Shown: positions 5,544 to 37,789 of the stretch, piece after piece
How the letters are laid out: every line of letters starts with the position of its first letter
Position numbering within the stretch: the stretch's first letter is position 1
Origin: Acidobacteriota bacterium
Lineage (GTDB): Bacteria > Acidobacteriota > Terriglobia > Terriglobales > Acidobacteriaceae
Length of the DNA stretch: 37,878 nucleotides
Reading direction: 5' to 3'
NCBI GenBank assembly: GCA_003225055.1
Contig: QIAU01000170.1
Span: 1 to 37,878, forward strand
The notes under the pieces: generated by a model
Told to the model about the DNA's origin: nothing
Database searches by the model: none
What the model saw: only the letters and a program-made list of their open reading frames with translations
Program-made: the position numbers and the translations under genes

Positions 5544-6458
5544 CTACCAGCCCCGGGTTTGCAGCATCTGGGCTTCGTCCATGGCTCCAACGGCCAGGCC
5601 TTTCATGGCGCTGGGCACGTCAGAGCTGACTTCAAGTAATACTTTAGGGTCCTGGTAATGCGTGGTGGCGCGCACGATGGCACGCGCACGCCGCTCGGCA
5701 TCGGCCGGATCGGCAAAGCTGGTCGAGTCCTTCATAAAAATGCCGGAGCCAACGAACACCGACTCTGCGCCTAGCTGCATAACCAGCGACGCATCCGCCG
5801 GAGTGGCAATGCCGCCGGCGGAGAAATTCGGCACCGGCAACTTCCCTGCCTTGGCGACCAGGCGCACCAGTTCATAGGGCGCTTGCAGGTTCTTGGCACG
5901 GGCATAGAGCTCTTCTTCCCCGAGAACGGTGAGTTCACGGATCTGGGAGATGATTTGTCGCATGTGTTTGACGGCATGCACGACGTCGCCGGTGCCAGCT
6001 TCGCCCTTGGTACGAATCATGGCCGCACCTTCCGCGATGCGGCGCAAAGCTTCGCCCAGATTACGGGCCCCGCAGACGAACGGGACGGTGAAGGCATGCT
6101 TATCGACGTGATGGGCCTCGTCGGCGGGAGTAAGGACTTCGGATTCGTCGATGTAGTCGACGCCCAGCTCCTCGAGGATTTGCGCCTCGGCAAAGTGGCC
6201 GATGCGGCACTTGGCCATCACCGGAATCGAGACCGCGTCCATGATCTCGCGAATCTTTTTGGGCGAGGCCATGCGGGCGACGCCACCTTCGGCGCGGATC
6301 TGCGCCGGCACCCGCTCCAGCGCCATGACGGCTACGGCTCCCGCCTGTTCGGCGATGGTCGCCTGCTCGGCGTTGGTGACGTCCATGATCACGCCGCCCT
6401 TCAACATCTCGGCCAGGCCGATCTTCAGACGCAAACCATTTCCCTTGTCCTGAGACAT
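5544..6458 (-). CDS. pdxS: Pyridoxal 5'-phosphate synthase lyase subunit PdxS
   Basis: 304 residues, matching the family. The TIM-barrel enzyme makes PLP from ribose 5-phosphate, glyceraldehyde 3-phosphate and ammonia. Key residues are visible: D26 in VIMDV, K83 in VMAKCRIGH (ribose-phosphate Schiff base), and K151 in [10 protein letters not shown]. The phosphate-binding loops ([31 protein letters not shown]) are intact. The ATG at 6458 has AAGGAGT seven bases upstream. It is the promoter-proximal gene of the pdxST operon and is transcribed away from a MocR-type regulator, the classical arrangement for PdxR control. Confidence 0.97.
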
Positions 6459-35987: not shown

Positions 35988-36018
35988 GGCGCGGAGCCGC
36001 CAATGGGGAGGAATGACA

Positions 36019-36369
36019 ATGAACCGACTCCAGCGGCGTGCGAGGTATCAGTACGGCTCGCTGATACTGGAGACACGCCAGCGAGCTCCATCCATATGGG
36101 TGTACCGCTTCTATGAGAACGTCCGCAACAAGAGGACACGGAGCAAGGTCATCGTTGACACAGAAGTCCAGCTTCGGGGACCGGCCCATGCCGAGCGCAA
36201 GTGCCAACATCTTTGGGTTGTCGGCGAACGCGACGGCGCCGCGATTCCATCGCAGCCGACGATTGGAAGCTTAATCGACCTAGGCGCACTCCGAAAGCTG
36301 CATCCTCCTGTTGTGGGTCGCCGCTTGGGGGCAGCCTCGGACGGTAGGAGCGGGCAATCGCCTCGGTGA
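36019..36369 (+). pseudogene. N-terminal fragment of a tyrosine recombinase/phage integrase
   Basis: About 116 residues. The N-terminus reads RRARYQYGSLILETRQR and WVYRFYENVRNKRTRSKVIVD, the Arg-rich first strands of integrase arm-binding domains in this phylum, followed by AERKCQHLW and TIGSLID, which correspond to the start of the SAM-like core-binding domain. After that the text is Gly/Arg/Ser-rich and stops at 36369; the catalytic R...HxxR...Y domain is missing. ATG 36019 has GGGGAGG at good spacing. It indicates an old mobile element that has lost its recombinase. Confidence 0.65.
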
Positions 36370-36468
36370 AATCCATCGCTTTGCCCATTTTTTCCGGCGT
36401 TGCCAACTAAATTGAACTCCGCTAAATTCGGGTATGGCAGCGAGTTAACATAATTCCTTTTGACGCCC

Positions 36469-37038
36469 ATGAGCGGGACCGGGCAAGGTCGACCGTACCA
36501 CGAGGAGTCGTGGAAAAAAGCCAAGAAGATCTGCCAACTCAATGCTCGGCAGGTCGAGATGGCGCGCGCCCTCGGCATGAATCCGAAGAAACTCCCCAGC
36601 CTACGTCCCGGCCCGCAGCAGCGCTGGAAGCTCCCGGTGGGCGAGTTCATCGAAGCGTGCTACTGGGAGCGGTTCGGGGGCGGTCCCCTCGACCGTCACC
36701 CGCACAAACCGGAGCCGGGGTCGCCGAAGCTTCTGACCCCGCAACGGGACGTGGACGCGCTGAAAGACGTCGGGGATGCGGCGTGGCAGGTGGGGGATCT
36801 GGTCTGCTACCTCATGAATCTCGCCGACGATCTGAACGCGTGGCTCGAGCAGGGCATGGTCGCCCAGGAGGTGCTGCCCCAGGTGATCCAGGAACTGCGG
36901 GAGATCGCGGAGGCGCTTGAGACTGGAGCGCCGGTGTGGCCGATTCCGGAGATTCCGCAACCACCCCGCCGCGCGCCCTACCCGTTGTCGCAGCGAGGGG
37001 ACCGGAAGCGCCGGTCCGACGACGACATCCCGTTTTGA
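36469..37038 (+). CDS. Hypothetical protein with an SSB-like C-terminal tail (DDDIPF)
   Basis: About 189 residues. No named family recognised. N-terminal part (KKAKKICQLNARQVEMARALGMNPKKL, FIEACYWERFG) looks like a small helical DNA- or protein-binding domain of a type I associate with plasmid or integrated elements; the middle (VGDAAWQVGDLVCYLMNLADDL) is helical; the last 50 are Pro/Arg-rich and basic, ending RRSDDDIPF. This last hexapeptide is the conserved acidic tip of bacterial single-stranded DNA-binding protein, which recruits RecO, PriA, RecQ and ExoI. There is no OB fold visible. ATG 36469 is used; TTG 36460 is possible. It follows the integrase fragment by 99 bases. Confidence 0.7.
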   Translation: MSGTGQGRPYHEESWKKAKKICQLNARQVEMARALGMNPKKLPSLRPGPQQRWKLPVGEFIEACYWERFGGGPLDRHPHKPEPGSPKLLTPQRDVDALKDVGDAAWQVGDLVCYLMNLADDLNAWLEQGMVAQEVLPQVIQELREIAEALETGAPVWPIPEIPQPPRRAPYPLSQRGDRKRRSDDDIPF

Positions 37039-37396: not shown

Positions 37397-37789
37397 TTAT
37401 AGGAGTTCGATTTGCGCGTGGTGGCCGGCGGCTGAACTCACCCTGCCGTCGCGGGTGATCAAAGGAGCGTTAAGAAGTTCAGCCAGAGCTGTATAGGCTC
37501 CATCATAGGCGGTGAGATTGTGGCGCAGCCGCCAGATTCTGGGTAGTAACCACCAGTGTGGATAACGGGTAAATCGCGCGTCCATCAGATCCTGCAAAGC
37601 TGCTTCGGCCCGCCCTGCGGAAAGGCTTCCTTCTCGGACGAAACGGCGCAATACCTGCGCTACCTCCAGGTCCAGCAGATGAGGTATATGAACGCTTTCG
37701 GATCGAGAATAGATTCGCCGGTCGATCTGGATTCCGGCTGGTGTGTGCAAGAGCCAATCGATTGCCGCTGAGGCGTCGAGAACGATCAA
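37397..37789 (-). CDS. vapC: VapC family PIN-domain ribonuclease toxin
   Basis: 130 residues, a full PIN domain: D5 (VLDASAAIDWLL), E42 (LLDLEVAQVLRRF), D96 (LTAYDGAYTALAE) and D114 (LITRDGRVS) form the metal-binding acidic set. VapC toxins cleave tRNA or rRNA in the cytoplasm and are held inactive by VapB. Start TTG 37789 overlaps the stop of the upstream antitoxin frame by four bases (TTGA), the usual coupling in vapBC operons. Confidence 0.88.
   Translation of the reverse strand: MIVLDASAAIDWLLHTPAGIQIDRRIYSRSESVHIPHLLDLEVAQVLRRFVREGSLSAGRAEAALQDLMDARFTRYPHWWLLPRIWRLRHNLTAYDGAYTALAELLNAPLITRDGRVSSAAGHHAQIELL

Follow-up and report, generated by a model that had tools for sequence, protein, structure and literature searches.

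In bacterial genome maintenance, the C-terminal tip of the single-stranded DNA-binding protein, SSB, serves as a central docking signal. A gene in a 37,878-nucleotide stretch of DNA from an Acidobacteriota bacterium (contig QIAU01000170.1; the whole stretch is referred to here as the window) encodes a 189-residue protein which reads as a non-SSB with a disordered linker and an SSB-type docking motif at its C-terminus. This tip is under purifying selection while the linker preceding it evolves nearly neutrally, and in the genomes searched it is nearly exclusive to SSBs and to the family of this protein. The protein is probably a standalone accessory adaptor which docks on SSB-partner enzymes through mimicry of the SSB C-terminus.

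The original prediction, made from the sequence, was of a DDDIPF end behind a flexible Pro/Arg-rich linker in a protein that is not an SSB and has no oligonucleotide/oligosaccharide-binding (OB) fold; both points are borne out. Translation of the frame gives the C-terminus RKRRSDDDIPF before the stop codon, and residues 174–189 are disordered in an AlphaFold2 model of the whole protein, built with 10 sequences. The model contains helices only (8–21, 26–34, 39–45, 57–69 and a hairpin of 95–128 and 136–152) and no strands. No OB fold (beta barrel) is present in it, a negative result of moderate weight as the mean predicted local distance difference test score (pLDDT) is 65. The Pfam SSB family (PF00436) is not matched by the protein at E-values of up to 10, in a search which does detect the SSBs of the same genome. 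A degenerate SSB is ruled out by this profile search and the predicted fold. No Pfam family is matched above cut-off, PHROGs and NCBIfam gave no match, and the PADLOC defence profiles returned 0 families for 11 family members at E up to 1. A Pfam RecJ_C_Deinoc match to residues 105–146 (E 0.041) is below cut-off and was not used, and sequence matches to the PDB entries 'Cake' and TbDC65 were set aside as short and weak. Foldseek, run with the whole model and with the N-terminal domain, gave nothing at E ≤0.001; in VIA-align Z reached at most 6.8 for the hairpin (coiled coils, helical bundles) and 2.3 for the N-terminal domain, below the tool's telling level.

Conservation of the tip was assessed in 13 intact copies (the window copy, L060, L002, L003, L059, L004, L005, L010, L011, L012, L065, L066 and L067). 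Loci that duplicate one of these places or genomes under a second handle (L013, L024, L062, L063, L064, L075, L143 and L144 among them) were not counted again. Identity to the window protein is 49–83% among the nine full-length homologues measured. All 13 copies terminate in I-P-F. Of the residues before them, position −6 is D in 12 copies and E in one, position −5 is D in nine and E in four, and position −4 is acidic in 11 of 13 (E in 10, D in one; H and K in one each). When six columns were drawn at random from residues 153–183, the mean entropy was as low as that of the tip in 3 of 100,000 draws. The ratio of the proportions of nonsynonymous and synonymous differences (pN/pS), calculated for 10 of the 13 copies in 45 pairs, is 0.21 in the N-terminal domain (residues 12–72), 1.08 in a first linker (73–105), 0.50 in the middle region (106–152), 0.89 in the second linker (153–181) and 0.21 in the tail (182–189). 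The constraint on the tip therefore equals that on the N-terminal domain. With a pS of 0.62, the tail has undergone much synonymous change, and it is therefore the protein, not the DNA, that is conserved. The tip is also not simply copied from the present host SSB, because in one genome (G282) an SSB ends in DDDLPF and the family member in DDEIPF. The expectation that homologues share the tail holds for the intact full-length copies and fails for proteins which have only the N-terminal domain in common with the window protein.

The specificity of the motif was examined by searching for [DE][DE]xIPF followed by a stop codon. In the genome of the window (7.41 Mb, 301 contigs) the pattern occurs at two sites, the window gene and the main SSB (tail TDEDIPF), and a reversed control pattern occurs at one; the second SSB of this genome ends in DDSEIPF and lies outside the pattern. 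Besides these two intact-looking SSB genes, the genome has an apparent SSB remnant, an SSB-like match divided between two frames (C184, about 5997–6292; L045, L046). Among 23 genomes, 14 of which had been picked for holding the family or a relative, L021, there are 38 sites in 21 genomes, 36 with a true stop and two ending in TGG. The 36 true-stop sites comprise 18 SSBs (recognised via translation or position behind a PF00436 match), 17 family sites (recognised via reading or position, and including L021 and the three decayed copies L006, L076 and L068) and one other frame of 60 codons. The reversed pattern has two matches in the same genomes. Two of the 23 genomes have no site of this pattern, and not all SSBs fit it. 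A chance match is ruled out by the pattern counts in the window's own genome and in the 23 genomes, the reversed control and the conservation of the tip in 13 of 13 copies.

Beyond what was originally proposed, other architectures also combine this N-terminal domain with the tip. The domain has the consensus W..A.K.C.L..RQ..MAR.LGMNP.KL...WK.PV..FIE..Y.KRFG in alignments. Modelled in isolation with 26 sequences (pLDDT 73.5), as a fragment starting at residue 6, it has three helices (5–16, 21–30 and 52–64 in fragment numbering). The domain is also carried by short proteins that end differently, in Acidobacteriota and Thermoplasmatota (2 of 145 genomes), in two Paraburkholderia plasmids and a Megaera plasmid, and in three phage or viral contigs. 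In a non-random sample of 39 proteins with the domain, which excludes the fragments L152, L153 and L156 and the N-domain genes of L159 and L160, 16 have the tip: the 13 of the window type, L021, L147 and L150. L021, a protein of 135 residues (L025:9913–10320), has three successive tip-like repeats (DDDSIPA, DDESIPV and DDDSIPF), of which only the last provides a free C-terminal Phe. L147 and L150, from genomes of the window's own class, end in DEDIPF and DDDVPF and carry a nucleotidyltransferase-like region between the N-terminal domain and the tip; the Pfam family Polbeta matches L147 below cut-off (E 0.0092) and does not match L150. This nucleotidyltransferase form was found in no viral contig, and in phages only an N-domain match was found.

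A tree of the domain was built from 36 of the 39 proteins (L015, L081 and L148 were left out) and 62 columns; many of its forks are unresolved and one row is inexact by one residue. The tail-bearing rows fall in two separated parts, which needs four label changes. Two gains of the tip, or one gain followed by losses, are both possible.

Some further occurrences of the domain were recorded. On the two Paraburkholderia plasmids (L027, L159) the short N-domain gene is absent from the PLSDB gene table, and the clusters are alike, with a tyrosine recombinase and SET-domain and PDDEXK genes. L037 (the same as L084) and L083 are frames of 546–570 codons with a weak N-domain, an unknown body and a Cys motif near the end; L083, the one of the two tested, has no Pfam match.

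Table 1. Features of the window considered in this study and the basis of each
Feature	Position	Strand	Basis
Gene of the SSB-tail-mimic protein, 189 residues	36469..37038	+	Translation; ATG 36469, with TTG 36460 a possible alternative start; full-length homologues
Conserved N-terminal domain, residues 12–72, predicted helical, perhaps helix-turn-helix-like	36502..36684	+	Alignments; AlphaFold2; pN/pS 0.21
Predicted helical hairpin, residues 95–152	36751..36924	+	AlphaFold2 helices; pN/pS 0.50 for residues 106–152
Variable Pro/Arg-rich linker, residues 153–181	36925..37011	+	pN/pS 0.89; residues 174–189 with pLDDT <50
SSB C-terminus-like tip DDDIPF and stop	37018..37038	+	IPF-stop in 13/13 intact copies; pN/pS 0.21 for residues 182–189; pattern test
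Rearranged leader; Shine-Dalgarno sequence (GAGG in most relatives) and usual start absent	36430..36468	+	Leaders of 17 copies aligned; further alignment to L086 and L002
PIN-domain (VapC-like) gene located downstream, an accessory neighbour outside the system	37397..37789	-	Pfam PIN, E 1e-10

The gene is rare and patchily distributed, and occurs once in the genome of the window. Its full-length relatives come from metagenome-assembled genomes (MAGs) of Acidobacteriota, and from the named MAGs and 'same phylum' labels all the genomes that hold them are inferred to belong to this phylum. In a sample of the phylum 11 of 396 genomes gave any match, with full-length copies in four genomes besides the window's own; the remaining matches were N-domain-only proteins, L021 and L019, the last a false match within an unrelated long frame, which was dropped. 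Matches were found in 11 of 399 genomes of the window's own class, in 14 of 193 genomes of a class sample around a Luteitalea MAG, and in 5 of 162 genomes of the class to which the genome of L021 belongs, where L021 alone has the tip. These counts take in decayed copies and proteins with the N-domain alone, so the full-length family is even less frequent. No full-length relative was confirmed in IMG/VR with the patterns used, and phage and viral records hold relatives of the N-terminal domain only; a phage origin was set aside on these grounds.

Six further copies, which lie outside the count of 13, are frameshifted or deleted (L006, L007, L008, L020/L076, L068 and L070). Four of them (L006, L008, L076 and L068) retain a [DE][DE]xIPF-stop reading, and none was seen in L007 and L070. 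The window copy has an intact reading frame and an altered 5' end. Relatives mostly begin with a start of the M-A-(K/N/S) type behind GAGG; this stretch is absent from the window copy, whose ATG falls within sequence that is leader in the relatives. The decay of the six other copies fits a gene under intermittent selection. A leader of about 100 bp is common to most of the 17 copies aligned. A mobile unit with conserved ends was considered and rejected, since nothing downstream of the stop codon is shared apart from among closely related loci and no conserved ends are therefore seen.

The genomic context was compared for 18 window-type copies, intact or decayed (the window, L086–L099, L012, L023 and L024), some of which share a genome; L006 lies in L094, which matches L002, and L003 and L022 lie in L095 and L098, respectively. 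The contexts were scanned for part of their open reading frames. The closest homologue lies beside a full Wadjet type II set (JetABCD; L086:4167–12556), with a tyrosine integrase at 472–1614, and L088 has Wadjet I (JetD by Pfam). A SNF2-family helicase adjoins the gene in five genomes (L087:2768–5605, L088:1021–4125, L091:4551–7130, L092:8118–9530 and L099:7026–8276); these helicases are 79–90% identical to the L091 protein, and the L092 and L099 copies are partial. PADLOC labels the SNF2 protein ZorD or DpdE; as the labels span the helicase part only, assignment to Zorya or Dpd was rejected. L092 also contains HsdM_N, and L090 a TOTE-type primase/helicase. PIN genes are present near the window copy and near L087, and no more than 11 kb from the L086 copy. 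The other contexts, as scanned, include a 2-oxoglutarate oxygenase, DUF6880, MacB/FtsX, AAA_14/DUF4143, SEC-C, a sulphur transporter and an outer-membrane protein. The flanks are mosaic, which suggests an exchange of modules: the upstream side of L087 recurs in L088 and L091, and the downstream side in L022 and L089.

An accessory setting had been proposed for the gene and is supported in general, because the gene is rare, has no constant neighbour and, in some of the contexts, lies among defence or integrase genes. The integrase fragment thought to adjoin it in the window (36013–36369) is unconfirmed: in limited tests this region gave a Pfam MC6 match below cut-off, showed no similarity to the L086 integrase and had no match in a plasmid collection.

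How might such a protein work? The N-terminal domain, possibly DNA-binding, and the helical hairpin would supply its own target or self-association, and the disordered linker would present the C-terminal [DE][DE]xIPF tip. The tip would then occupy the SSB-holding pocket of enzymes that maintain the host genome, such as RecJ, RecO, PriA, RecQ and primase. Its chemistry fits what partner pockets read. The SSB C-terminus is read through the side chain and carboxylate of its C-terminal Phe together with acidic side chains (PMC3594151), and a crystal structure of RecJ with the SSB C-terminus has the partner pocket reading the same features of the ligand (PMC4846377). In Deinococcus the C-terminal domain of RecJ binds the SSB C-terminus (PMC4846377), and RecO is one of more than 17 partners (PMC7913777). 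Most simply read, the family protein would present this ligand on another body. A hijack of SSB partners, as originally suggested, is plausible. The partner enzymes would thereby be recruited to whatever the protein targets, possibly in a conflict with phages or plasmids. Such recruitment is favoured over plain competition with SSB, and over entry into SSB condensates, because the N-terminal domain and the tip are equally conserved and recur in combination.

A wider reading, which is possible and put forward tentatively, is that the proteins are adaptors of conflict systems. A widespread N-terminal domain would have been coupled, in two separated parts of its tree, to a mimic of the SSB C-terminus through interchangeable middles (the helical hairpin, the acidic-IP repeats or the nucleotidyltransferase-like region), commandeering the host's SSB-partner network through mimicry of a short linear motif. 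Host nucleases such as RecJ might be brought onto invading DNA, for example, or the fork might be guarded.

Several observations weigh against the adaptor proposal. The other 23 proteins of the domain sample lack the tip; among these, the viral L040 ends in GDPF, and L151, from the window's own class and of the same build as L147 and L150, ends in ETPY. Well-supported branches of the domain tree force only two label changes, and repeated gain of the tip is not established. DNA binding by the N-terminal domain, and its helix-turn-helix (HTH)-like nature, are a guess, because there is no significant fold match. No partner gene is conserved and neighbours differ, so that a constant operon partner was rejected for the contexts compared. 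Defence-type genes are inconstant, being present in 7 of the 18 contexts without a random-locus control; given this and the scan of part of the reading frames, any enrichment is a lead only. Between the window copy and its closest homologue, L060, there are 33 nonsynonymous and 15 synonymous differences (pN 0.077, pS 0.11), and the resulting pN/pS of about 0.7 hints at relaxed selection; expression of the window copy may be poor, or its decay may have begun.

Among the alternatives, the protein could be a competitive inhibitor, the tip saturating SSB-binding pockets and blocking repair and replication enzymes without recruiting them, in an anti-host or anti-defence role for a carrier element. 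The repeated-tip variant L021 speaks for this, but only its last repeat bears the free C-terminal Phe, and a single tail would presumably compete weakly with the abundant tails of SSB. The equal constraint on the N-terminal domain suggests more than delivery of a tail, and inhibition is unlikely.

It is more doubtful that the protein is an HTH-like regulator of a mobile element, whose tip would serve as a minor accessory, or as a degradation signal with no more than a resemblance to the SSB C-terminus. The N-terminal domain does have a weak resemblance to phage-type profiles in PHROGs (a repressor family at a best E of 0.0035 in 2 of 9 members, and CII-like families at 0.11–0.15). Its PDB matches in Foldseek, non-significant at E 3 or worse, include Aca1, KorA, the NatRT complex and the N-terminal domain of AcrIIA15 on DNA, all of which we take to hold HTH domains. 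A minor accessory would not readily account for a tip that is constrained as strongly as the domain and is so nearly confined, in the genomes searched, to SSBs and this family.

Slightly less probable again is a client of SSB condensates, whose tip would bind the OB fold of SSB itself and so place the protein on SSB foci instead of on partners. Tail-less SSB binds the SSB tail as a free peptide with a dissociation constant of 2.1 µM, and this peptide is enriched in SSB condensates; SSB's own tails, however, compete efficiently for the OB-fold site (PMC12143593), and proteins of the window family bear a single tip. Finally, that the window copy is a remnant and its tip incidental is very improbable: the missing start and Shine-Dalgarno sequence and the six decayed copies could be read so, but the window copy keeps an intact frame, and for the family the idea is contradicted by a tip kept in 13 intact copies with synonymous change inside it.

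If the adaptor proposal is true, a non-SSB family with a selected tip would show that the SSB hub can be reached by molecular mimicry in cells. No report of such a family was found among the listed titles and abstract openings of open-licence PubMed Central articles, and publication elsewhere is possible.

Known systems offer partial parallels. Hypothetical nucleotidyltransferase-like proteins of Microvirga and Sinorhizobium (L161–L163) have the region that follows the N-terminal domain in L147, L150 and L151 and is joined to the tip in L147 and L150; the plasmid relatives read, three of six records, differ in having neither N-terminal domain nor tip and end in ITTA, TVDED and TVEED. Hna is a helicase-nuclease activated by phage SSB, which makes SSB a point of phage-host conflict (PMC13381803); some family genes likewise lie beside defence genes, whereas no enzymatic domain is recognised in the family protein. 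The SSB of phage HK620 is an example of a phage SSB that recruits its own partner: the SSB-type tip (NDYPPF) of a mobile-element protein binds a recombination protein, Sak4; the HK620 protein is, however, a true SSB which coats single-stranded DNA (PMC5928155), and the family protein is not. A further comparison is with bacterial SSB itself (PF00436). SSB is general, whereas the family is rare and accessory, and in place of a predicted OB fold or SSB profile match the family has a helical N-terminal domain and hairpin. Both have a disordered linker and a terminal [DE][DE]xIPF with a free C-terminal Phe, and in the family members L004 and L066 the likeness extends to FDDxIPF, as compared with MDFDDDIPF in E. 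coli SSB.
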